A stretch of 64,000 nt of DNA from Candidatus Zixiibacteriota bacterium (GTDB lineage: Bacteria > RBG-13-66-14 > B26-G2 > WVWN01): the NCBI GenBank assembly GCA_030613505.1, contig JAUWLW010000006.1, positions 1 through 64,000 of the forward strand, written 5' to 3'. Below the pieces are notes generated by a model. It worked only from the letters and a program-made list of their open reading frames with translations. It made no database searches and had not been told where the DNA came from. Numbering within the stretch: position 1 is the stretch's first letter; each line of letters begins with the position of its first letter. The position numbers and the translations under genes are program-made. Shown here piece by piece: positions 16,207-49,965 of this stretch.

Positions 16207-17286
16207 CTACTCCTCGGCCGCCAAAGCGTTCAGCGCCGCCGCCATTATGTCCGCGATGCGGTTGACGTACCCCGCGTTCTCGGGCGCGAACGAGAAGAAG
16301 GCCAACTTCCCGGCGCCCACCGGCCGCACCATGCCGTAACAGAGGCCGTCGCTCGGGCCCACGAAAAACGACGCCGCGTTCGCCGGAGGCCGGAACCCGT
16401 CGCCCCAGTTGCCGATTATCGTCAGGTCGTTCGACAGGCTGTACTTCTCCTGCGGCAAAGACGCCGCCGGCCCGGCCGCCACCTCGGCCACCTGCGTGTC
16501 GGCCTGGTACGACGTTATCCCCAAGACCTGCCGCGTAAACGGCGTACGGCCCCGCGACGCATCCGACAGGTAGTTTTGCGACACCAGCAACAGCCGGCCG
16601 CCGCCCTCGACGTACGACGCCATCGCGCGCTCGTCCGCCGCCGAGATGACCACCGGCCGCGCGTCCAGGCCGTTGAACCAGACGACGAGCGGATACGGGG
16701 CGAGCTCCGCCGCGGACGGGCCGTCGCGGCCGGCGCGCACGACGTACACGTCAAACGTTACGCCCAGCCGCTGTAGCGCGTCGCGGTACTTGCCGTCGAC
16801 GTCGACGCTGTACTTGTTGCCGTTGCCCGGGCCGTCGTCGTCGTCCACGAGCAACAGCTTGCGGTTCGATAAGAAGCGCTTGAAGAGGGGCTCGGGCCGC
16901 GGCGGCGCAAGTTCGAGGCGCCGGAAGACGTCGACTACTACGACCGCGGCCTCGCGGTGCGAATACGCCCGAAACGTGCCGACGTCGGCCGTAGTGGTTA
17001 TGATAAAGGTGGTCGCGCCCTTCGCCCGGGCAACGCGTATGTTTTGTATGCGACCCGCGGGCGCGGTTAATAACCCCTTCGGCGCGTCGCCGGCCACCGT
17101 GAGGACCAGCGTCCGCGGCTCGCCGCCGGCCTCGCACGTGAACGTCGTCGCCTCGTCCAGGACGACGGTCAGCTCCGTGTAAACTTCGTACGCGTCGACC
17201 GAGATGGAGCGAACCGAAACGGCGCAGGCGGCCGCGGCGACGAGAATCGGCGCAACGAACCAGAGCGGAGCCGCCGTCGTCCTCAC
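16207..17286 (-). CDS. Secreted protein with ThuA/GATase-like C-terminal region
   Basis: GTG start overlaps upstream stop; KLLLVDDDDGPGNGNKYSVDVDGKYRDALQRLGVTFDVYVV...YPLVVWFNGLDA...MASYVEGGGRLLLVSQNYL. Confidence 0.6.
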   Translation of the reverse strand: MRTTAAPLWFVAPILVAAAACAVSVRSISVDAYEVYTELTVVLDEATTFTCEAGGEPRTLVLTVAGDAPKGLLTAPAGRIQNIRVARAKGATTFIITTTADVGTFRAYSHREAAVVVVDVFRRLELAPPRPEPLFKRFLSNRKLLLVDDDDGPGNGNKYSVDVDGKYRDALQRLGVTFDVYVVRAGRDGPSAAELAPYPLVVWFNGLDARPVVISAADERAMASYVEGGGRLLLVSQNYLSDASRGRTPFTRQVLGITSYQADTQVAEVAAGPAASLPQEKYSLSNDLTIIGNWGDGFRPPANAASFFVGPSDGLCYGMVRPVGAGKLAFFSFAPENAGYVNRIADIMAAALNALAAEE

Positions 17287-17897
17287 TTCACGACCGCTAT
17301 CTTGCCGGTGTGCTTCTCGCCGTTGGGAAGCTCGACGACGAACATGTACGTGCCGGCCGCGACCATGTCGCCCCGTTCGTTGCGTCCGTCCCATTGGAGA
17401 GGGGAGCCCGAGACTTTGACGAGCTCGCGACCCTCCATGTCGTAGATGGCCGCGGTCGAGCCGGAGGGAGCGCCTTCGAACGTCAGCTGACCTATGCCGG
17501 TAGAGAGGTCGAACGGGTTGGGCGTGGCGTATACCTCCGGCAGCACGGGGGCGCCGCCTATGACGGTCACGTTCACCGACGCCTCGGAGCCCAGGCCGCC
17601 CGCCTCCTCGACGACGATGCGGTACGCGGGAAGCGCGTCCGCCGGGACCCGCCACATTATCATGCCGTTGGTTTCGGCGCTATATTCGCCGATCCTATTG
17701 CGGCGGCCGTCCCACTTCAACCATACGTCGACGGCGTTAGTGGTGAAGTTGCGCCACGTGATGCGCACCACCTGGCCCGGCTTGATCTGGGCATCGTCAG
17801 GCGGATTGGTAATGGTGAGCTCGCCGATGGCCCACGCCGCCGCGGCCGCGCCGAGCAACGTGCCTACAACTAAGCCGTATTTCGCGAAGGATTTCAT
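17283..17897 (-). CDS. Secreted protein with FlgD/Por-tail-like C-terminal domain
   Basis: Signal peptide; YATPNPFDLSTGIGQLTFEGAPSGSTAAIYDMEGRELVKV...WDGRNERGDMVAAGTYMFVVELPNGEKHTGKIAVVK. Confidence 0.75.
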   Translation of the reverse strand: MKSFAKYGLVVGTLLGAAAAAWAIGELTITNPPDDAQIKPGQVVRITWRNFTTNAVDVWLKWDGRRNRIGEYSAETNGMIMWRVPADALPAYRIVVEEAGGLGSEASVNVTVIGGAPVLPEVYATPNPFDLSTGIGQLTFEGAPSGSTAAIYDMEGRELVKVSGSPLQWDGRNERGDMVAAGTYMFVVELPNGEKHTGKIAVVK

Positions 17898-18088: not shown

Positions 18089-19009
18089 CTAGAACTGCAT
18101 CCCCAGCGATATCCGGTGCGTGGCGCCGAAAAGGCCCATGTCGGCATAGGCGTAATCGGCCAGGAGGCCTAGGTTGGCGGTGGGCGAATATTTGAAGCCC
18201 AGGCCGCCCGTCAGGCCGTCCTCGTCGTAATTCCCCTTATAGCCGGCGCGGGCGGCGATGGTCTTCATAAACCAGTACTCCACGCCGGTGTTGACCATAA
18301 CGTCGTCGCGGTCGTTGAACTTGACGGCGTCCACCGCGACGGTGAGGTCGTTCGATTCGCCGCCGAAGGGCAACAAGTACGCTACGCCGCCCCGCAACGC
18401 CAGCGGCAGCGGGTCGCCCTCGTCGATGAACTTCATCTCGCCGCCGATGTTGGAGGCCGAAACGCCGACCGCGAGCCCGGGCAGCGGCAGCTCCCCCACC
18501 GCGCCCACGGACCCGGCAAACGCGGAGGCGCTCTCGTCCTCGATCTTGGAGGATACGTATTCCGCCGCGGCGCCCACCGCGAGGAAGTTAAACAACCGGC
18601 GCGCGTACCCGAGCGAGAGCACCATGTCGCTGGCGCCGAATTCGCCGGTGTAGTTCCCCAGCTCGTCGCGGCCGGTGAGCTTACCCATGCCCACCCGGCC
18701 CGCCGAGAAGCCAATCGTCCCCAAGTTGAAAAGCGGGTACGAAAGGCCCAGGTACTCGTAGCGGACATCCTCGAGCCATTCGTTGTGGGTAAAGGATACC
18801 GCGCGGCGGCTATTCACCGCGAGGCCCGCCGGGTTCCAATACAGCGCTTCCGGGCCTTCGGCCGCCGCGGCCTGAGCCTCGCCCATGCCGACCGCCCGGG
18901 CGCCGACGCCGAGCTTCAGAAACGCCGCAGCCGACGAGCCCGCGTCCGCGGCGCCGGCCACGCACGCCGTCGCCAAAGCCGCAACTAAATAGGGTATTAA
19001 TCTCTTCAT
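18089..19009 (-). CDS. PorV/PorQ family outer-membrane protein
   Basis: AAAFLKLGVGARAVGMGEAQAAAAEGPEALYWNPAGLA signature; beta-barrel pattern. Confidence 0.88.
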   Translation of the reverse strand: MKRLIPYLVAALATACVAGAADAGSSAAAFLKLGVGARAVGMGEAQAAAAEGPEALYWNPAGLAVNSRRAVSFTHNEWLEDVRYEYLGLSYPLFNLGTIGFSAGRVGMGKLTGRDELGNYTGEFGASDMVLSLGYARRLFNFLAVGAAAEYVSSKIEDESASAFAGSVGAVGELPLPGLAVGVSASNIGGEMKFIDEGDPLPLALRGGVAYLLPFGGESNDLTVAVDAVKFNDRDDVMVNTGVEYWFMKTIAARAGYKGNYDEDGLTGGLGFKYSPTANLGLLADYAYADMGLFGATHRISLGMQF

Positions 19010-38559: not shown

Positions 38560-39387
38560 TTAGCGGAAGAGGGCTTTGACGCGGCCGAGGCTAGCCGGCT
38601 CCACCGCGGCGGGTTCGTATTCGAGGGGGTCGGTCGAGATCTCGTATACGTACTTTTCGCCGGTGAAGGTGGAGACGAAGATGCTTTGGAGCGAGGGGCG
38701 GCCGAAACAAGCGCCGCCGACGTACTCGTCGTTGACCTTGAACGCGAAGCGCGCGACCGGGAAGCCGGCGGTCGTGTATTCACGCGCGTCGTAGTTCGGG
38801 CGCCCGGACACGACCCACAGGTTGCGGCCGCCGTACGCCAGGGCGTGGTTTTTGGGGTGGGCCGCGGCGAACGAGGCGACGACCGAGCCGACGCTGGTGA
38901 GCCGGTACACGAGGGGGGACTCGTACGAGGAGGCGTAGAGGTAGGAGCCGTCCCAGGTGAGGCCGTTGACGTGTTTGCCGACGGGGAACGGGCCGTCGAA
39001 CTTGTTCGTCAGCGAGCCGGTGTCGGCGTTGAGGACGATTATCTTCGCCCGGGATTGCGGCTTGACCAGGTCGTCGGCGACGTAGATGCGGTTGCGCAAC
39101 CCGGGCCGCCAGGCCAGGTCCATCGCCCAATTGACGTCGGCCGGGCAGTTGAACCGCTTCTCGACGCTGGCGTTCTCGCCGTCGAAGGTGAACCTGAGTA
39201 TCCGTACTTGCTTTGGGCCGCGGTTGTCGGCCACGGCGTATTCGGCGTCGCCGTCGAAGGCGAGGCCGCGGGGGCCGTTCAGCGAGAGCCCCGGGATGTT
39301 GAAGCTCGCTATGATGTCGCCCGGGACCGCGCGGGCCGCGGACGCCGCGGCCGCGACGGCGACGAGGCATTTCACGCACTCTAACAT
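38560..39387 (-). CDS. Secreted beta-propeller protein with conserved C-terminal tail
   Basis: Signal peptide; propeller-like repeats; ends VEPASLGRVKALFR. Confidence 0.7.
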   Translation of the reverse strand: MLECVKCLVAVAAAASAARAVPGDIIASFNIPGLSLNGPRGLAFDGDAEYAVADNRGPKQVRILRFTFDGENASVEKRFNCPADVNWAMDLAWRPGLRNRIYVADDLVKPQSRAKIIVLNADTGSLTNKFDGPFPVGKHVNGLTWDGSYLYASSYESPLVYRLTSVGSVVASFAAAHPKNHALAYGGRNLWVVSGRPNYDAREYTTAGFPVARFAFKVNDEYVGGACFGRPSLQSIFVSTFTGEKYVYEISTDPLEYEPAAVEPASLGRVKALFR

Positions 39388-39430
39388 TTCCTTAAGAGTA
39401 TAACATCGCGGCTGAGCCGCGTCCAGGCCT

Positions 39431-40693
39431 TCACGCCGGGCCGCCGGCGCGGACGTATTCGCCGGCGGCGACGTCGAGGGTCGAGAAGTCCGGCGGCCGC
39501 GCGCCGACCTCGACGCACGCGTTGCGGGCCAGGCGTAGCCCCGCCGGCAGCTCGCTCTCCCGGCCCACGAGGACCAGCCCCGACGTAAGTTGCTCGGCAT
39601 AGTGACGGTTGGGCGTATAGTCGTCGCCGTGGCCGAGGACGCAGCCGTCGCCCGCTGCGGTCTCTTTGTCGATTATAACCCGCTCCAGGCGGCAGTCGGC
39701 GCCGACGCGGCACTCGTCCAGTACGACGGAGGACTCGACGACCGCGCCCGGGCCTACGGTCACGCCGGGGAATATGATCGAGTTGCGGACGGTCCCGTAT
39801 ATCTCGCACCCCTCCGCGACCAAAGCGCGGGCCGCCGAACCGCCCGGGTAGAAGCGCGCGGGCGCGTAGTCGCGGCTGGGCGTGCGGACGGGCCAATCCT
39901 CGTCGTAAAGGTTGAAGTCCGGCAGGTCCGCGATCAGGTCCATATTGGCGTCGAAGTACGCGTCCACCGTACCCACGTCGCGCCAGTAGTCCTCGAAGAT
40001 GTAGCAGTAGACGCGCTTCTCGCCGATGAGCGAGGGTATGACGTGGCGGCCGAAGTCCGTCATCCCCTCCGGGACGCGCGCCATGGCGTCGAAGAACGCC
40101 TCGCGCGTAAAGAGGTATATCCCCATGGAGACCATGTCCGATTTGGGCTCGGGCGGCTTCTCCTCGAAGGCGACGATGCGGCCGTCGGGCGCGAGCTCGA
40201 GCGTCCCGAACCTCGTCGCGTCCGCCCGCGGCACCCGCAGCGTCGCCACGACGACGTCGGCGCCCTTGACGTCGAGGACGCGTCGCAGGAGGTTGTAATC
40301 CATGGCGTAGACGTGGTCGCCGGCGAGGACCAGCACGTGCGCGAAGTTGCGGGCGGCGACGTAGTGCCGGTTCTGGTAGCAGGCGTCGGCCGTCCCCTTG
40401 TACCAGTCGGAGTCGACGCGGCCCAGATGCGGCTGCAGCAGCTCGACGCCGCCCCAGCTGCGGTCGAGGTCCCAGGCGCGGCCTATGCCGACGTGTTTGG
40501 CGAGCGACCGCGGCCGGTACTGCGCCAGCACCGCGACGTGGAAGATCCCGGAGTTCACGCAGTTGGAGAGCGTGAAGTCGATGAGGCGATAGCGGCCGCC
40601 GATGGGGACCGCGGGTTTGGTCCGCCGTCTGCACAGTTCGGCGAGGCGTTCGCCTTTGCCGCCGGCTAGGATTAAGGCCAGGGTGTTTCGCAT
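39431..40693 (-). CDS. glgC: Glucose-1-phosphate adenylyltransferase
   Basis: LALILAGGKGERLAELCRRRTKPAVPIGGRYRLIDFTLSNCVNSG; GDHVYAMDY; FEEKP. Confidence 0.92.
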   Translation of the reverse strand: MRNTLALILAGGKGERLAELCRRRTKPAVPIGGRYRLIDFTLSNCVNSGIFHVAVLAQYRPRSLAKHVGIGRAWDLDRSWGGVELLQPHLGRVDSDWYKGTADACYQNRHYVAARNFAHVLVLAGDHVYAMDYNLLRRVLDVKGADVVVATLRVPRADATRFGTLELAPDGRIVAFEEKPPEPKSDMVSMGIYLFTREAFFDAMARVPEGMTDFGRHVIPSLIGEKRVYCYIFEDYWRDVGTVDAYFDANMDLIADLPDFNLYDEDWPVRTPSRDYAPARFYPGGSAARALVAEGCEIYGTVRNSIIFPGVTVGPGAVVESSVVLDECRVGADCRLERVIIDKETAAGDGCVLGHGDDYTPNRHYAEQLTSGLVLVGRESELPAGLRLARNACVEVGARPPDFSTLDVAAGEYVRAGGPA

Positions 40694-40736
40694 ACGGCCC
40701 TATTTTATACTACGACGTTCGCGATACAAGCAAAAA

Positions 40737-40870
40737 ATCGGCATCGCGGCCGCGGCCCCTACCGGGGGGCGGACTTCCGCCGCAAGGAGCAGGCCAAGGG
40801 TAGCTCGGCGGACGGGCAATACCCCATCGGCTTCGACCCCCGGCGCTTCGGCTACCTGGCGTTCGAGTAA
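40737..40870 (+). pseudogene. Possible 3' remnant of a CDS
   Basis: Open frame without start: RGRGPYRGADFRRKEQAKGSSADGQYPIGFDPRRFGYLAFE*. Confidence 0.35.
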
Positions 40871-40888
40871 AGCAAGGGTAATTTATGT

Positions 40889-40918
40889 AAAAGCGGCTCA
40901 GTTGAGCCGCTTTTTTTC
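40889..40918 (+). terminator. Rho-independent terminator
   Basis: AAAGCGGCTCAGTTGAGCCGCTTTTTTT. Confidence 0.85.
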
Positions 40919-40965
40919 GTAGCTGCCAATTTACATACCTAAATAAGTAATATATAAAAAAGTAC

Positions 40966-40993
40966 TTGACAAACAGAACGGGGGGGGTAGACT
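40966..40993 (+). promoter_or_regulatory. Sigma70-like promoter of the subtilase gene
   Basis: TTGACA-16 bp (G-rich)-TAGACT. Confidence 0.6.
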
Positions 40994-41058
40994 GTAAGGG
41001 TAAAGAAGAGGGTTCGGTTTCTAAATTGGGGTTTTAATTATTGACAAGGAGGACGGAG

Positions 41059-42753
41059 ATGCGGAAACTAATCTTGACCGGGGTCGCGGCGTGCCTTATA
41101 ATAGGTTGCGCCGCGTTAGTTAACGCGGTAGAGTATAACCCGGGGATAATCTGCGTGGAGTTCGGCGATAATGTTAACCTTGAGAGGAAACCGGGGACTA
41201 AGGGCTCGGGGCATCCGTCGCTGGACGTGCTCGCGGAGAAGTACGACGTTTACGAGGCGAAGGCCGTATTCCCAATGCCCAAGGCGCCTATAAAGCACCC
41301 GCACGGCCTGTGGGATTGGGAAGACTGGCAGCGGTCGGCGGCGAAGGCGCGGCTGAAATACGTCTACGTGTTAAGGTTCCGCGCCAAAACCGACCCCCGG
41401 TTGGTAGCCGAGGATTACAAGAAGGACCCGTACGTCGAAAACGCCGCGCCGGAGGGGCGGGGCGAAGCGTACATGTTCCCCAACGACCCCGATTTCGACC
41501 AGCAGTGGTACCTGTACCTCGATTACAACCGCGACTGCGACATCCACTGGCCCGAAGCTTGGGACCGCTTTATTTTCGCGCCACCGGACTGGCTTGACGG
41601 GTACCCGCTAGCCGGCATTATCGACACCGGCATATACACCTCGACCGGCGATCACGGCGGCATTCACCAGGATATCCGAGCAAACGTCGGCGTCGCCTAC
41701 GACATTTTAGGTGAACCGTTCCCGACGGATATTTCCGGCCACGGTACCGGGGTCGCCGGTATAATGGCCGCGGAGACCAATAACTGGTTGGGTATAGCCG
41801 GCGTGGGGGTAAACACCTTCAAGGTTATGCCCGTTCGGACGTTCTATTACAAACCCGTTGACCCGTATCTAGTGGGGTTCGGAATGGTGTACGCGGTAAG
41901 CAGGGGAGCCGACCTCTTGAACATGTCCTGGGGTTTTCCTTATCCCCCTCTCGAAATACAGATCGCGCTCACGCACGTCTGGAACCTCGACATCGTAACG
42001 GTAGCGGCTAGCGGCTACAGCCCGAACCCCGGGGACCCGGTCTACAACTACCCCGCGGCGGACGAGGACGCGCGCATGATAAGCATCGGCGGGACCGTAC
42101 GCGTCCCCAACGAGTGGTTATGGTGGGACCACAGCGGCTGGCACCAATCGACGGTCGACGTCGTAGCGCCCGCCACCCCGGACATCTACACCACCTGGCT
42201 CTATAACGACTACGCCGACAAGGAAGGGACCTCGTACTCCTGCGCGATGGCCTCCGGCATCGGCGCCGCCTGCCTCGTGATGTTGGAAGGGCCTTACCCG
42301 GGCATCGACGTCGACGTGCGCGAATGTATCCACCACGGCGGCGTTAACTGGGGCGGTTACCCGGTCGAGGAATGGGGCTGGGGAACCGAATACTACGACG
42401 ACGCGTTGGACCACGCGATCGCGATACGCGAAGGCGGCGGCGACGGCGGCTCGAGCGGCCCGGCCGCGGCGACGCCCGCGGTGACGCTCGCCCAGAACGC
42501 CCCCAACCCCGCGGCTTCTACGACTACGTTCCGCCTCGAGCTTTCGGCCAAGGGGACCACGCGAGCGGAGCTTGTCATCTACGACCTGAGCGGCCGCAAG
42601 GTCCGGACCTTCGACGTGCCGGTAAAGGACGGCGCCGCGGAGGTGGCGTGGGACCTGACGGCGAGCGACGGCGCCCGCGTTCCCCCCGGCGTATACATTT
42701 ATAGAGTGAACGCCGGCGGCGCAACCTCGGCCAAGAAGTGCGTCGTTCGTTAA
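41059..42753 (+). CDS. S8 (subtilisin) family serine protease with FlgD/Por-like C-terminal tail
   Basis: Asp IIDTGIY, His GHGTGVAGIMAAE, Ser GTSYSCAMASG; C-terminal NAPNPAASTTTFRLEL...LSGRKVRTFDV...VPPGVYIYRV. Confidence 0.92.
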   Translation: MRKLILTGVAACLIIGCAALVNAVEYNPGIICVEFGDNVNLERKPGTKGSGHPSLDVLAEKYDVYEAKAVFPMPKAPIKHPHGLWDWEDWQRSAAKARLKYVYVLRFRAKTDPRLVAEDYKKDPYVENAAPEGRGEAYMFPNDPDFDQQWYLYLDYNRDCDIHWPEAWDRFIFAPPDWLDGYPLAGIIDTGIYTSTGDHGGIHQDIRANVGVAYDILGEPFPTDISGHGTGVAGIMAAETNNWLGIAGVGVNTFKVMPVRTFYYKPVDPYLVGFGMVYAVSRGADLLNMSWGFPYPPLEIQIALTHVWNLDIVTVAASGYSPNPGDPVYNYPAADEDARMISIGGTVRVPNEWLWWDHSGWHQSTVDVVAPATPDIYTTWLYNDYADKEGTSYSCAMASGIGAACLVMLEGPYPGIDVDVRECIHHGGVNWGGYPVEEWGWGTEYYDDALDHAIAIREGGGDGGSSGPAAATPAVTLAQNAPNPAASTTTFRLELSAKGTTRAELVIYDLSGRKVRTFDVPVKDGAAEVAWDLTASDGARVPPGVYIYRVNAGGATSAKKCVVR

Positions 42754-42774
42754 CGATTTAACCGGAAACGAAAA

Positions 42775-42807
42775 CCCGCCCCCGCCCCGCCCGGGCGGGG
42801 GCGGGGC
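42775..42807. other. All-GC inverted repeat
   Basis: CCCGCCCCCGCCCCGCCCGGGCGGGGGCGGGGC between the protease and the tandem array. Confidence 0.6.
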
Positions 42808-42822
42808 AACCCCTAAAAAGCT

Positions 42823-43794
42823 ATGGTTAAAGCAAATACGTTCGCGACGGTTTTAGTATTTTTGGCTTTACTCGCGGCAGCGGTAAGCTGCGAGGACGTC
42901 CCGACTTATACTTTACCGGGCCCGTACGTGCCGCCGCCGGTGAAGGGGGATGACGGCCGGCGTTTATTATGGGAGCCCGGGCCGATGGAGGCACAGTGCT
43001 TCGAGCCGTCGTTTTCGCCCGACGGCACTAAGGTCGTCGTCAGTTACCGTTTCGGCATCTTCGCTCCTGCCGCGGACCTCGCGATATTAGACTTGACGAC
43101 GGGCAAGATAAAAGTCATCGTCGAGGGCAACGTCGCCAAAAGGCCGGCGTGGTCGCCCACCGGCGAGTGGATAGCATATCAGAGCGACGCGGGGGTCGGC
43201 CGATATATTTGGTTGTGCCGGCCCGACGGCTCGGAAAACCACCGGTTGGAGTTTAAAAATGCGTTTACGCCACGTTGGGGTCCTAAAGGCGATAAGATTT
43301 ATTTTTCTTACGTATATAACGCAAGGGAAAAGGATTACGGCGTTTACTATGACTTAGGCGAAGGAAAATTGGACGTTTTATACCGAGACCCGCTTAGGCA
43401 CGTTGGCGTGTTAATACCATCACCCGGGGGGGAAGAAGTAGCTTTTTACCTACTAGACAATATACATAACGGCAACGATATAAACCTCGCCGCCATCAAC
43501 GTGGATGGCTCAGGGTTCGAGGTGTTATGGCCCGCGGGCCCCTATAGGGTTTGGGCCGCGGCGCGTTCCTGGTCCGCCGACGGCCGGTATATACTAATGG
43601 GGTACGGCTACCCGGGTACTAGTATTGACGAGTTGGGGACGTACGAGCTAAAGACGGGGATATTCCGCCCGCTAACGATGTGTCCGCCGAGGCAGAAATA
43701 CGAAAAAATACTGTACGCGTCGTGGGGGCCTAACGGCGATATAGTATTCGGGAACCATTTGGGCCGGCTGTCCTTGATCAAGGCGCCGGAGTAA
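42823..43794 (+). CDS. TolB-like propeller lipoprotein, tandem copy 1
   Basis: Lipobox AVSC; SFSPDGTKVVVSY, WSPTGEWIAYQSD propeller repeats. Confidence 0.85.
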   Translation: MVKANTFATVLVFLALLAAAVSCEDVPTYTLPGPYVPPPVKGDDGRRLLWEPGPMEAQCFEPSFSPDGTKVVVSYRFGIFAPAADLAILDLTTGKIKVIVEGNVAKRPAWSPTGEWIAYQSDAGVGRYIWLCRPDGSENHRLEFKNAFTPRWGPKGDKIYFSYVYNAREKDYGVYYDLGEGKLDVLYRDPLRHVGVLIPSPGGEEVAFYLLDNIHNGNDINLAAINVDGSGFEVLWPAGPYRVWAAARSWSADGRYILMGYGYPGTSIDELGTYELKTGIFRPLTMCPPRQKYEKILYASWGPNGDIVFGNHLGRLSLIKAPE

Positions 43795-43795
43795 G

Positions 43796-44761
43796 ATGTG
43801 TCGGCGGCTGGCGGCGTATTGGCTCGGCCTCTTAGTTATCGGGGGCTTGTCAGGTTGCGAGGACGTCCCGACTTATACTTTACCGGGGCCGTACGTGCCG
43901 CCGCCGGTGAAGGGGGACGACGGCCGGCGGCTGTTGTGGGAACCGAAAGACGAGTACGAAAAACAATGTTACGAGCCGTCCTTCTCGCCGGACGGCACGA
44001 AGGTAGTCGTTAGTTATAGGAACGGCATTTTCGGGCGGGACGCGGACCTCGCGATACTTGATTTAAAGACGGGAAAATTGAATATAATAGTCAAGGGAAA
44101 CTCCGCCAAAAGGCCTACGTGGTCCCCCACCGGCGAGTGGATCGCGTATCAGGGCGACCGTGAAGCCGCGCCGTATATCTGGTTGTGTCGGCCCGACGGC
44201 TCGGAAAACCACCGCCTCGAGTTCAAGTGGGCCTGGACGCCCCGGTGGGGCCCGGAGCGCGATAGAATTTATTTCGCGTACGCATATGAACCGCGGAAGA
44301 TATACGGCGTGTATTACGACCTCGACGAGCAGGAGCTGCACGTTTTATACCGGGACCCGCTTCTCAACGTGGGGCCGCCGCTGCCGTCGCCGGGGGGCGA
44401 GAAGGTCGCGTTTTATCTTTGCGACGATTTACAAAATTATAAAGACGTTAACCTGGCCCTCATAAACGCGGACGGCACCGGGTTAGACGTGATATGGCCT
44501 GCCGGCCGGGCGAGGTATTGGGCTGCGGCGCTGGCTTGGTCGCCCAGCGGAACGTACATCCTTATGGGGTACGGCTACCCGAGCAGCGGCTTAGGCGAGT
44601 TGGGAACGTACGAATTAAAGACGGGGATCTTCCGGCCGGTAACTAAATGTCCGCCGAGGTTGGGTTTCGAGAGCATACAGTGTGCGTCGTGGGGCCCGAA
44701 CGGCGACATCCTATTCGGTAACCATTTGGGCCGGCTTTACTTAATAGAGGCGCCGGAGTAA
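43796..44761 (+). CDS. TolB-like propeller lipoprotein, tandem copy 2
   Basis: Paralog; previous stop TAA, 1 nt, ATG. Confidence 0.85.
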   Translation: MCRRLAAYWLGLLVIGGLSGCEDVPTYTLPGPYVPPPVKGDDGRRLLWEPKDEYEKQCYEPSFSPDGTKVVVSYRNGIFGRDADLAILDLKTGKLNIIVKGNSAKRPTWSPTGEWIAYQGDREAAPYIWLCRPDGSENHRLEFKWAWTPRWGPERDRIYFAYAYEPRKIYGVYYDLDEQELHVLYRDPLLNVGPPLPSPGGEKVAFYLCDDLQNYKDVNLALINADGTGLDVIWPAGRARYWAAALAWSPSGTYILMGYGYPSSGLGELGTYELKTGIFRPVTKCPPRLGFESIQCASWGPNGDILFGNHLGRLYLIEAPE

Positions 44762-44762
44762 G

Positions 44763-45728
44763 ATGTGGCGGCGGCTGGCGGCGTGTTGGCTTGGCCTCTT
44801 AGTTATCGGCGGCGCAGTAAGCTGCGAGGACGTACCTACGTCTACGCTGCCCGGGCCGTACGTGCCGCCGCCGGTGAAGGGCGACGACGGCCGGCGGCTA
44901 TTGTGGGAACCGGGCCCGGGCGAAAGGCAGTGTTATAATCCAAGTTTATCGCCCGACGGTATGAAAGCGGTGGTTAGTTACCGGTACGGCTTTTTCGCCC
45001 GGGCGGCGGACCTCGGGGTACTGGATTTAACTACCGGCAAGATAAAGGTAATCGTAAGCGGCAACTCCGCCAAGAGGCCGACGTGGTCCCCCACCGGCGA
45101 GTGGATCGCTTACATGAGCGACCGCGAGGCGGCGCCTTATATCTGGCTGTGCCGGCCGGACGGCGCGGAGCACCACCGCCTCGAGTTTAAAAACGCGTTT
45201 ACGCCGCGGTGGGGCCCGGAGGGCGATAAAGTTTATTTCACTTATGACCTCAACCCGAGGGAAAAGGGATATGGCGTGTATTACGACCTCGACGAGGGGG
45301 AGTTGCACGTTTTATACCGCGACCCCCTTCGGCACGTGGGGCCGCCGCTGCCGTCGCCGGGGGGCGAGAAGGTCGCGTTTTACCTCTGCGATAATTTACA
45401 GAGTTATAAAGACGTTAACCTGGCCCTCATAAACGCCGACGGCACCGGTTTTGAGGTAATATGGCCTGCGGGCCGGGCGAGGTATTGGGCCGCGGCGCTG
45501 GCCTGGTCGCCCAGCGGGAGGTACATCCTTATGGGTTACGGCTACCCGGGGAGCGGCTTAGGCGAGTTGGGGACGTACGAGCCCAAGACCGGGATATTCC
45601 GGCCCCTCACTAAGTGTCCGCCGAGGCTGGAATACGAAAAAATACTGTACGCGTCGTGGGGGCCGATAGGGGACATATTATTCGGCAACCATTTGGGCCG
45701 GCTTTACTTAATAGAGGCACCGGAGTAA
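44763..45728 (+). CDS. TolB-like propeller lipoprotein, tandem copy 3
   Basis: Paralog; identical TAA-G-ATG junction. Confidence 0.85.
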   Translation: MWRRLAACWLGLLVIGGAVSCEDVPTSTLPGPYVPPPVKGDDGRRLLWEPGPGERQCYNPSLSPDGMKAVVSYRYGFFARAADLGVLDLTTGKIKVIVSGNSAKRPTWSPTGEWIAYMSDREAAPYIWLCRPDGAEHHRLEFKNAFTPRWGPEGDKVYFTYDLNPREKGYGVYYDLDEGELHVLYRDPLRHVGPPLPSPGGEKVAFYLCDNLQSYKDVNLALINADGTGFEVIWPAGRARYWAAALAWSPSGRYILMGYGYPGSGLGELGTYEPKTGIFRPLTKCPPRLEYEKILYASWGPIGDILFGNHLGRLYLIEAPE

Positions 45729-45729
45729 G

Positions 45730-46692
45730 ATGTGGCGGCGGCTGGCGGCGTGTTGGCTTGGCCTAGTAATTCTCGGCGGCTTGGTAGGCTGCGAAGACGT
45801 GCCGACGTCGACGCTGCCCGGGCCGTACGTGCCGCCGCCGGTGAAGGGGGACGACGGCCGTCGCCTGTTGTGGGAGCCCGGGCCGATGGAGGCGCAGTGC
45901 TTCGAGTCGTCTTTCTCGCCGGATGGGACCAAGGTAGTAGTGAGTTATCGTTTCGGGATCTTTGCCCGGGCCGCGGACCTCGCGATATTGGATTTGACGA
46001 CGGGCAAGATAAACGTTATAGTCGAGGGCAACTGCGCCAGGAGGCCGACGTGGTCGCCGACCGGCGAGTGGGTCGCGTATCAGAGCGACGGCGAGGCGGC
46101 GCCGTATATCTGGTTGTGCCGGCCCGACGGGTCCGACAACCACCGCCTCGAGTTCAAATGGGCCCGGACGCCGCGGTGGGGCCCGGAGGGGGATAAAGTT
46201 TATTTCGCATATATTTACGAACCGGGGAAAGAATATGGGGTATATTACGACCTCAACGAAGAGAAATTGGGTATATTATACCGCGACCCGCTCCTAAAGG
46301 TTGGCCCGCCGCTGCCGTCGCCGGGGGGCGAAAAGGTCGCGTTTTACCTCTTCGATAATTTACAGAATTATAAAGACGTCAACCTGGCCCTCATCAACGC
46401 GGACGGCTCAGGGCTAGAGGTGATATGGCCGGCGGGTCGGCCGAGGTGGTGGGCGGGGGCGCTGGCTTGGTCCCCCGACGGGAGGTACATTCTAATGGGT
46501 TACGGCTATCCGGGGAGCGGCTTAGGCGAGCTGGGTACGTACGAGCCGAAGACCGGGATCTTCCGGCCCCTCACTAAGTGTCCGCCGAGGCTGGAATACG
46601 AAAAAATACGGTACGCGTCGTGGGGCCCGAACGGGGACATCCTATTCGGCAACCATTTGGGCCGGCTTTACTTAATAGAGGCGCCGGAGTAA
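45730..46692 (+). CDS. TolB-like propeller lipoprotein, tandem copy 4
   Basis: Paralog; identical TAA-G-ATG junction. Confidence 0.85.
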   Translation: MWRRLAACWLGLVILGGLVGCEDVPTSTLPGPYVPPPVKGDDGRRLLWEPGPMEAQCFESSFSPDGTKVVVSYRFGIFARAADLAILDLTTGKINVIVEGNCARRPTWSPTGEWVAYQSDGEAAPYIWLCRPDGSDNHRLEFKWARTPRWGPEGDKVYFAYIYEPGKEYGVYYDLNEEKLGILYRDPLLKVGPPLPSPGGEKVAFYLFDNLQNYKDVNLALINADGSGLEVIWPAGRPRWWAGALAWSPDGRYILMGYGYPGSGLGELGTYEPKTGIFRPLTKCPPRLEYEKIRYASWGPNGDILFGNHLGRLYLIEAPE

Positions 46693-46712
46693 AAAGGAGC
46701 GCGAGGAGTTAT

Positions 46713-47411
46713 ATGTTTAAATACTTATTTCCGGTAGTATGGGTGGTTTTAACCCTAACCGGCGTCGGCACGACTTGGGAATTAATCCCGGAGGTAAGCT
46801 ACGGCGTCTCCTTCCTGGACGGCGCGCCGTGCGCGTACGTCGAGACCGAGCCCGCGCCGGAGACGAACGAGCCGATGGGCGGGGCCCTTAGCGCGGACTT
46901 CGGCCGCTACGCCGTAGAGGTGTCGTACATACCGCGCTACGACCTGTACGCTGTCATCGGCGCGGTGCACGATTTTGCCGCGGTGGCGCGCGCCGCCCCT
47001 ATATCCCGCGAGCGGTGGGCCGTGTACGGCGAGGCCGGCGTGGGCGTATCCAAGTGCGCGGCGCCGATGGCGTTCTTGTTCGAGGAGGGGCCGGAGTATA
47101 TCTGGACGCCCGTGGTTGGGGCCGGCATCGGTTACGTGCCCTGGGAGTGGCTCGAGCTTGACGCCGGCGTCTCGTACCGTATCCGGGCGCAGGTCTTGCA
47201 GTACGGTACCGTGAGGTCGCGCGCGATCGATATATACGCGGAGTGTTTATTCGCGCCGCTACCGTACGTGGCCTTTGGCCCCTCTTTCCGCCAGATCCTC
47301 TACGGCCCGTACGACTATTACCTTTACGGCGAGACCCACCGAAACGCCGGTTGGGTTACCGGGAAGGAAACGTACGTTCTCGCCACGGTGGCTTTCCCGA
47401 TTCATTTTTAG
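46713..47411 (+). CDS. Outer-membrane beta-barrel-like protein
   Basis: GAGGAG before ATG 46713; signal peptide; alternating aromatic beta-strand pattern. Confidence 0.6.
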   Translation: MFKYLFPVVWVVLTLTGVGTTWELIPEVSYGVSFLDGAPCAYVETEPAPETNEPMGGALSADFGRYAVEVSYIPRYDLYAVIGAVHDFAAVARAAPISRERWAVYGEAGVGVSKCAAPMAFLFEEGPEYIWTPVVGAGIGYVPWEWLELDAGVSYRIRAQVLQYGTVRSRAIDIYAECLFAPLPYVAFGPSFRQILYGPYDYYLYGETHRNAGWVTGKETYVLATVAFPIHF

Positions 47412-47429
47412 GTGAATTGGATAAAAGAA

Positions 47430-47456
47430 AGCGGCCCTTGCGGGCCGCTTTTTTTC
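47430..47456 (+). terminator. Rho-independent terminator
   Basis: AAAGCGGCCCTTGCGGGCCGCTTTTTTTC. Confidence 0.85.
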
Positions 47457-47476
47457 AAACGTTGTCGGCGCGGTTG

Positions 47477-48436
47477 CTACCGCATCAGCGCCTTGATCCT
47501 TCCTACGGAGGAGGGGTCGACGCCCGGGAAGTTCCGGTACTCGTAAATTGTCCCGTTGGTGCCGACGGCCCAGCCGTGCGTGCCGTCCAACATGAAGAGG
47601 CCGGAGAAGCTCTCCGACGTGGCCGGTTTGGTGTTAAACTTTTTCCAGCTCACGCCGTCGTAGCGCAGGATAACGCCGTCGTCGCACACCGCCCAACCTT
47701 CCGTCGGGCCGGTGAACGCCATTTCGCGGACGGCGGCCGTGGTGGGCGTGGTGACCTGCACCCAGCTCACGCCTTCGTAGTGGAAGAGGCGGCCTGAAGC
47801 GCCGCCCGCCCAAACGTTATTCTCGGACAGGGCGTAGATGCAGTGGAAATTCGTGGTCGTCGCGGCGCTGACCTGGGTCCATTCCGATTCCGCGAAGTGG
47901 AAGACCTTGCCTTTGTTGCCGCATAGCCAGCCGTCGTTTGGGCTCGAGAAATGTACGTCGTGGAGGGCGGCCAGGATACCGATATTCCAGGAGCTCCAGG
48001 CGCCTGTTCTCCCGCCGGTCCAGCGGAAGACGGTGCCGCGCTCCCCTACGGCCCAAGCAACCGAATTTTGCCCGGGCGGGATCGTGACGCCCCAGATATT
48101 ACGCTTGGTCGGCATACCGGCGAACTTCCACTTGGTGCCGTTGAAGACGGCGCCGTTACCCTGGGAGCCTACGGCGAGGCCGAAGTTCGCGGTGCCGAAG
48201 TCGACGTCCTGGAAGTACTGCGTGGGCCACGTGAAGTTGATGTTCCACCTCCCGTTACGGTAGCGGAGGATTTCACCCCAGTAACCGACGGCCCAGCCGG
48301 TATTGTCGTTGACGAACGTTACGGCGTTAATGTCTTTTGCGGTGGGGGATTTGTATTTCAACCATCCGGAGCTGGCGTAGCTGAAACACGCCGCCACCAC
48401 TATAGCGACCGCGGTCGTTAAACATACCCGCTTCAT
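47477..48436 (-). CDS. Secreted YCF48/BNR-like beta-propeller with conserved C-terminal tail
   Basis: Repeats NTGWAVGYWGEILRY, EGWAVCDDGVILRY, HGWAVGTNGTIYEY; ends VDPSSVGRIKALMR. Confidence 0.82.
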   Translation of the reverse strand: MKRVCLTTAVAIVVAACFSYASSGWLKYKSPTAKDINAVTFVNDNTGWAVGYWGEILRYRNGRWNINFTWPTQYFQDVDFGTANFGLAVGSQGNGAVFNGTKWKFAGMPTKRNIWGVTIPPGQNSVAWAVGERGTVFRWTGGRTGAWSSWNIGILAALHDVHFSSPNDGWLCGNKGKVFHFAESEWTQVSAATTTNFHCIYALSENNVWAGGASGRLFHYEGVSWVQVTTPTTAAVREMAFTGPTEGWAVCDDGVILRYDGVSWKKFNTKPATSESFSGLFMLDGTHGWAVGTNGTIYEYRNFPGVDPSSVGRIKALMR

Positions 48437-48690: not shown

Positions 48691-49965
48691 TTAATCGACA
48701 ACGCTCGCGGTAACGCCGTTGGGCATGGCGCCGTCGAAACGCGCCAGCGCGTTTTCCTGTACGCCGACGTCGAGCAGGCAGTTCCTCCCGACCGCGAAAT
48801 GCGCCGGTATTCGCACCCGCTTGCCGACCAACGTTATCCCGCGGCTCAGCTGTTCCGGAAAATCCTCGTTCGGCCGGGGTTCGCCGACGTCGTCGCCCAC
48901 GCGGGCGCCCGGCCCTACGCCGGCGAACTTGTCCAGTATCACGCGGTCCAACGACGCGCCGGCGCCCACCCGCGTCCCATCCAGAACTATCGAATCCTTA
49001 ACCCGCGCCCCCGCTTCGACGTAGACCCGCCGGAATAGTACCGAGTTTTCCACGCGGCCGTTTATTATGGACCCGTCGGCGACGAGGGAATTTACCACCT
49101 CCGCCTCCGGCCCGAACTTCACCGGGGGGTCGTCGGGGAGTCTGGTGTATATGGGCCAGGCCGGGTCGTCGAGCTTGCAGGCCGGGTTTTCGGCCAGGCA
49201 CTCAAAGGTTACGTCGTAGTAGTCGTCGACCGTGTCTATCCGGGCCCAATATTCGTCGTGCCGGTAAGCGGCGACGGCGCCCTCGGCGACGGCCGGCGCG
49301 ACGACGTCGGCGACGACGTCCGTGGCGCCCCGCGTCTCCGCCTGGCGTAATTTGTCTACCAGGAGAGAGCGGCCGAATACGTATATACCCGTAGACGCGT
49401 ACCAGGAGCCTTCGGCCGGCGCGGCGACGCCCACCGCGGCGACGACGTTGCCGCCGCCTATTTCGACCGCGTCGTTTCGGCCCGGTTGGGGCGCGGCCAT
49501 TTTCTTAACGACGAGCGTTACGCTCGCGGGCGAAACGGCGTGGAAGTCCAATAGCGGCCGGTAGTCCATTTTGTACACGCCGTCGCCCGAGGCCACGACC
49601 ACGCAATCGAAGCGTTCGTCGTCGACCACTTCCAGATTTTGGGCCAGCGCGTCCGCCGTCCCTTCGTACCAGTGGGTCTCGCCGCCGCGGTAGTAGGGCT
49701 CGAGCAGGCGGATGCCGCCGTCGCGTCGGTCGAGGTCCCACGGCTTGCCGATGCCGACGTGGGCTTTCAGCGACTCGGGGAGATATTGGGTGACCACGCC
49801 CACGTTGGTTATGCCGGAGTGAGTGAGGTTGGACAACGTGAAGTCGATGAGGCGATAGTGGCCGGCGAAGGGAACCGATGCCTTGGGGCGGACGCGGGAG
49901 AGGGCGAGCAGGCTGTCGCCCCGGCCGCCGGCGAATATCATCGCGAGGACGTTGCGCATCGGCAT
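48691..49965 (-). CDS. Divergent GlgC/GlgD-like ADP-glucose pyrophosphorylase homolog
   Basis: NVLAMIFAGGRGDSLLALSRVRPKASVPFAGHYRLIDFTLSNLTHSG; several catalytic motifs altered. Confidence 0.85.
   Translation of the reverse strand: MPMRNVLAMIFAGGRGDSLLALSRVRPKASVPFAGHYRLIDFTLSNLTHSGITNVGVVTQYLPESLKAHVGIGKPWDLDRRDGGIRLLEPYYRGGETHWYEGTADALAQNLEVVDDERFDCVVVASGDGVYKMDYRPLLDFHAVSPASVTLVVKKMAAPQPGRNDAVEIGGGNVVAAVGVAAPAEGSWYASTGIYVFGRSLLVDKLRQAETRGATDVVADVVAPAVAEGAVAAYRHDEYWARIDTVDDYYDVTFECLAENPACKLDDPAWPIYTRLPDDPPVKFGPEAEVVNSLVADGSIINGRVENSVLFRRVYVEAGARVKDSIVLDGTRVGAGASLDRVILDKFAGVGPGARVGDDVGEPRPNEDFPEQLSRGITLVGKRVRIPAHFAVGRNCLLDVGVQENALARFDGAMPNGVTASVVD

Follow-up and report, generated by a model that had tools for sequence, protein, structure and literature searches.

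Two exported proteins encoded in the window (the whole 64,000-nucleotide stretch of DNA that was analysed) end in the same kind of short peptide. More than 100 otherwise unrelated exported proteins of the genome carry this ten-residue tail, and variants of it occur in bacteria bearing a type IX secretion system (T9SS), so that it looks like an undescribed address label for the cell surface. We regard its role as a sorting tag as nearly certain and its dependence on the T9SS as likely; a direct part of the peptide in T9SS transport or anchoring is an inference. On the reading we favor, and hold to be rather probable, Sec-exported proteins of bacteria with a T9SS use the tail as a short C-terminal signal for sorting or anchoring, which is most likely read by the outer-membrane machinery of that system.

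Two exported propellers with a common tail

Contig C23 of a 2.86 Mb metagenome-assembled genome of Candidatus Coatesbacteria contains the window. The loci L093-L095, L100 and L102 (WVWN01), labelled Candidatus Zixiibacteriota A-C077, group with the window's genus, in Coatesbacteria; the label is probably misassigned. The first of the two genes (38560..39387, minus strand) encodes an exported beta-propeller made up of a signal peptide, the propeller, a flexible linker and the tail, whose core SLGRVKALFR, with the stop codon, occupies 38560..38592 (minus strand). The open reading frame (ORF) extends over 38560-39600 on the minus strand and ends in ...VEPASLGRVKALFR, and its true start is likely 39375 (GTG) or 39387 (ATG), which yields a Sec signal peptide. 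The second gene (47477..48436, minus strand) encodes an exported propeller of the YCF48/PSII-BNR type, assigned from sequence and Pfam; its product ends in ...VDPSSVGRIKALMR, with the core SVGRIKALMR and the stop at 47477..47509 (minus strand). Both cores were placed by the sequence, the genome pattern search and the alignment of C-termini. The sister genome (L094) has an orthologue of the first protein that is 74% identical and retains the tail. Genes of the GlgC type (glucose-1-phosphate adenylyltransferase-like, judging by sequence) lie at 39431-40693 and 48691-49965, each near one of the tail genes.

The original prediction had stated that the two proteins share a tail on different bodies, and both parts hold. 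The body of the first protein has no Pfam match; its AlphaFold model (mean pLDDT 80) is a propeller, and Foldseek gives NHL domains and glutaminyl cyclases as the best PDB matches. In this model nearly all of the last 19 residues have a pLDDT below 50, and a short helix is predicted over the tail. The model of the second protein, built without an alignment, is poor, and the fold assignments do not rest on it.

The tail had also been described as unlike the FlgD/Por-like tails at 17283 and 41059. These do exist and are a different module: Pfam identifies a subtilase with a FlgD/Por-type C-terminal domain (41059..42753, plus strand), an example of the known kind of T9SS-like signal that this genome has besides the tail, and a small exported protein with a CHU_C/FlgD-like C-terminal domain (17283..17897, minus strand). 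The best reading is that the tail is used alongside such domains. A weak Pfam match marks a PorV/PorP-like outer-membrane barrel, a candidate shuttle, at 18089..19009 (minus strand). In contrast to the two tail proteins, four tandem and very similar PD40 propellers (42823..46692, plus strand; sequence and Pfam) are lipoproteins, with lipobox ..GC/SC-EDVPT, and carry no tail.

Conservation of the tail within the genome

The likeness of the two window tails is not due to chance. When the core S-x-G-[RK]-[VI]-K-[AG]-x-x-[RK]-stop was back-translated and searched in the 2.86 Mb genome, we obtained 116 matches, against none for the reversed pattern; within the window the core pattern has three matches where 0.09 are expected, the third not being at a gene end. 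Genome searches, together with the stretches around the matches, gave 116-125 ORFs ending in [AG]V.P[AT]S[LVF]G[RK][VI]KA[LI][FY][RK], which is also the consensus of 116 aligned C-termini. In this alignment the glycine is invariant, and the proline, serine, lysine and alanine each exceed 90%. The glycine is encoded by all four of its codons and the serine by both TCN and AGY, and synonymous sites vary freely; this variety of codons indicates that the constraint acts on the peptide. The motif is strictly terminal, with exactly one residue following it in 102 of 102 occurrences (ORFs of at least 60 amino acids in the stretches read).

A preset test of the original prediction asked for enrichment of the tail at the C-termini of exported proteins, and such enrichment was observed. 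By a heuristic, signal peptides are present in 72 of the 78 intact tail ORFs versus 66 of 194 other ORFs (odds ratio 23), and none of the 102 motif occurrences is interior. The bodies belong to unrelated folds, including NHL propellers (about 30 of 99), YCF48, cupredoxin, Omp28-like and MAM-like proteins; FlgD_ig, Por_Secre_tail and CHU_C do not figure among the 25 commonest families of 99 tail proteins. The tail itself matches no Pfam or NCBIfam model, and neither a transmembrane helix (last 50 residues) nor an LPXTG or PEP motif near the end was found in any of the 116 tails. A lipobox is ambiguous in three of 93 tail proteins.

Distribution in Coatesbacteria and other bacteria

Strict matches number 79-128 per genome in the window's own genus, 3-9 in the sister order and class, and 0-2 in the remaining family of Coatesbacteria; relaxed patterns give 84-132, 12-27 and 0-5, respectively. 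An apparent confinement of the tail to Coatesbacteria proved to be an artefact of requiring [RK] at position -7 and L, V or F at -9, and was overturned when -7 was relaxed and W allowed at -9. Relaxing -7 also recovered tails in a Krumholzibacteriia metagenome-assembled genome and in one further bacterium. We then surveyed 386 genomes spread across bacteria, permitting W (or F) at -9. Multiple copies, 6-51 per genome, were found in at least eight families outside the phylum (f30, f71, f74, f104, f139, f163, f178 and f219), the reversed control matching hardly anywhere, and where these loci outside Coatesbacteria were read the tails likewise terminate proteins with signal peptides. Copy number ranges from 0 to about 130 per genome.

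Association with type IX secretion

The original prediction had also asked for co-occurrence with a specific transporter, and we found it for SprA, the T9SS translocon. We searched the same 386 genomes for it; outside Coatesbacteria, 42 of the 46 genomes with a tail encode SprA, as do 54 of the 326 that have none (Fisher p ~4e-24, kinship ignored). All 15 genomes with at least six tails, from eight families outside Coatesbacteria, possess it. Of the four genomes that have tails and no SprA, three contain chance-like matches, and the other (G116) has an SprA-positive family-mate. Against a link to the T9SS stand the 54 SprA-positive genomes outside Coatesbacteria in which the pattern used detects no tail. 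Within Coatesbacteria, also against it, SprA_N had no match in two tail-bearing genomes, G003 (89% complete) and G005 (78% complete). Since SprA is restricted to certain phyla, its co-occurrence with the tail may in part reflect shared ancestry, and the main weakness of the association is that the two could share a phylogeny with no direct functional tie.

The window's own genome has sprA at G000:C76:35811-41672, and upstream of it, in divergent orientation, are two NHL genes that bear the tail; in the sister genome G004 three tail genes lie upstream of sprA, the nearest being adjacent and divergent. This arrangement is seen in the own genus only, none of the non-Coatesbacteria SprA loci read (L203-L210) having tail genes nearby, and it could be due to chance, because an estimated ~5% of genes carry the tail. 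Directly downstream of sprA, three genomes of the genus have two ExbB-like and two ExbD-like genes (L121:16256-18762 (G000:C76), L199:11048-13542 and L200:502-3008); these possibly form a proton-driven motor that replaces GldL/GldM-PorL/PorM or works beside it.

C25/PorU-like proteins and proteins with FlgD-type C-terminal domains (CTDs) occur in all 14 Coatesbacteria genomes. In another family of the group, a C25/PorU-like gene stands beside two PorV-like genes (G011:C104, G009:C153, G007:C230). Counts of PorV Pfam matches revealed no tail-specific shuttle or receptor, the matches being weakest in the tail-rich genus. The suggestion that the tail could be a second sorting or attachment signal working with PorV-like machinery is supported: export enrichment, co-occurrence with SprA and a single-copy form next to or near porD speak for it. 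A PorV-type, tail-specific shuttle was not found.

A single-copy FN3-like protein ending in the tail

Many other genomes have exactly one tail, T-W-G-S-I-K-A-[ML]-F-R, which ends an exported FN3-like protein of 130-145 amino acids. In the phylum of G216, probably Bacteroidota, about 90 of 396 genomes gave one match. Members of this family are ~90% identical in the tail and ~27% in the body. The gene immediately follows porD, on its downstream side, in families f6 and f56 and is ~800 bp from porD in f229, and in f56 it is also near porQ. PorD, which binds PorW, belongs to the T9SS (PMC8754138). Many T9SS-positive genomes have the FN3-like protein (L262-L268, L177, L179-L185, L190-L192). A PDB search with the protein gave no match, and no Pfam family scored above the cut-off. 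The FN3-like protein is a possible unrecognised component of the T9SS, and its ending TWGSIKA[ML]FR may be the original form of the tail.

Discussion

We propose that a Sec signal peptide, recognizable from sequence, would first take the tail proteins to the periplasm. There the folded body, often a beta-propeller, would expose a flexible linker whose end reads P-x-S-[LVFW]-G-x-[VI]-K-A-[LM]-[FY]-[RK]-COOH. The tail would form a short helix on this disordered linker; its conservation comes from the alignment, and the helix is predicted from a low-confidence region of the AlphaFold model. The peptide could then dock at a component of the SprA translocon or at a PorV/PorQ-type shuttle, in parallel to the Ig-like FlgD/Por CTD, and the protein would be handed to the outer surface or retained there. 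In Coatesbacteria, and likewise in several further lineages, the tail has spread to between tens and more than 100 proteins. The evidence is evenly balanced on a broader proposal, in which the tail would define a new class of sorting signal: a soluble C-terminal peptide of ~10 residues, with neither a transmembrane helix nor a folded CTD, recognised by a putative T9SS-associated receptor, derived from the ancient single-copy T9SS-linked FN3-like protein (TWGSIKAMFR) and acquired independently in several phyla by tens to more than 100 proteins.

One observation fits the tail as another way to locate soluble proteins at the envelope: NHL homologues without the tail in relatives are often lipoproteins, whereas a tail-bearing one has an ordinary signal peptide. 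The exclusion of lipobox and tail is not absolute, as an SGNH-like protein of f5 (L148/L164) seems to have both. We looked for replacement of a FlgD domain by the tail among orthologues and saw none, the tail-less NHL homologues often being lipoproteins instead. If signal-peptidase-I proteins with the tail and lipoproteins without it are alternatives in this way, a sorting or anchoring signal independent of the T9SS might explain them, for instance a basic amphipathic peptide that binds lipopolysaccharide, the outer membrane or a dedicated outer-membrane receptor, the T9SS being incidental. The tail end is indeed short, basic and amphipathic, as judged from hydrophobic moments, and predicted to be helical, and the four lipoprotein propellers of the window lack it. 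We nevertheless find this explanation unlikely, given that SLG.[VI]KA.[FY] is conserved far beyond the needs of membrane binding and that the association with SprA is strong and the single-copy form adjoins porD. The conservation of that single-copy form beside porD, with its near-invariant tail on a fast-changing body, would also suit a peptide that docks on a scaffold in a periplasmic or surface complex. In that case the FN3-like protein would belong to the T9SS and be fixed there by its tail, and the multi-copy proteins would be clients of the same site and not cargo. More than 100 diverse clients per genome suit cargo sorting better than a single complex, and we hold the docking peptide to be quite improbable.

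The strictly C-terminal position of the tail would suit a periplasmic degradation or quality-control tag recognised by a PDZ protease. PDZ domains prefer a hydrophobic C-terminal end, whereas the tail closes on a conserved Arg or Lys, and its carriers form large, maintained gene families with a link to the T9SS, which makes a degradation tag very improbable. Tandem paralogues are frequent among the carriers, less than 400 bp separating 46 of 61 neighbouring pairs, so that the tail might merely have arisen through recent gene duplication or from a DNA element repeated at 3' ends. This explanation is hardly credible and was rejected, because different folds carry the tail, synonymous sites and serine codon families vary freely, and the tail is present in several lineages.

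If our preferred reading of a T9SS-read sorting signal is true, the type IX system has a second, much smaller export or anchoring code. The tail would then allow large surface proteomes to be predicted in uncultured phyla in which only FlgD-like tails were recognised, and it singles out a T9SS-linked protein, present in single copy and so far unstudied, as a possible component of the system. Being so short, the signal should lend itself to reporter fusions and to modelling with its receptor.

A text search of the literature for the tail strings found no paper, and we do not assign the tail to the PEP-CTERM-like, LPXTG or T9SS A/B/C signals, because their defining features (the transmembrane helix or the folded CTD) are absent. 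LPXTG/sortase anchors are likewise C-terminal anchoring tags with a basic end, but the tail has neither the LPXTG motif nor the transmembrane helix (0/116). Lipoproteins fix the same kinds of propeller at the envelope by another route, N-terminal cysteine lipidation, and tail proteins do not show the lipobox that this involves (3/93 ambiguous). PEP-CTERM, GlyGly-CTERM and MYXO-CTERM, the tags of exosortase, rhombosortase and myxosortase (PMC1569441, PMC3237569, PMC11980579), resemble the tail in being short C-terminal homologies common to many unrelated exported proteins of one genome, with lineage-specific expansions traceable by phylogenetic profiling; they differ in having a transmembrane helix that is cut by an intramembrane protease, which none of the 116 tails has. 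The CTDs of T9SS substrates are folded domains of roughly 70-235 residues (PMC12618676, PMC10202324), and those of type A have been described as having a C-terminal motif that is essential (PMC11285876). The tail differs from types A (TIGR04183/PF18962), B (TIGR04131) and C in being a peptide of 10-14 residues after a linker, with another consensus and no Pfam or NCBIfam match, and the AlphaFold model of the first window protein predicts a disordered linker with a short helix in place of a folded Ig-like or longer CTD. Like these types, it is a C-terminal signal on proteins with a Sec signal peptide (72/78, by heuristic) from genomes with SprA (42/46 outside Coatesbacteria, with G003 and G005 as exceptions inside), and tail genomes likewise carry C25/PorU-like proteases and FlgD/Por-type CTDs.
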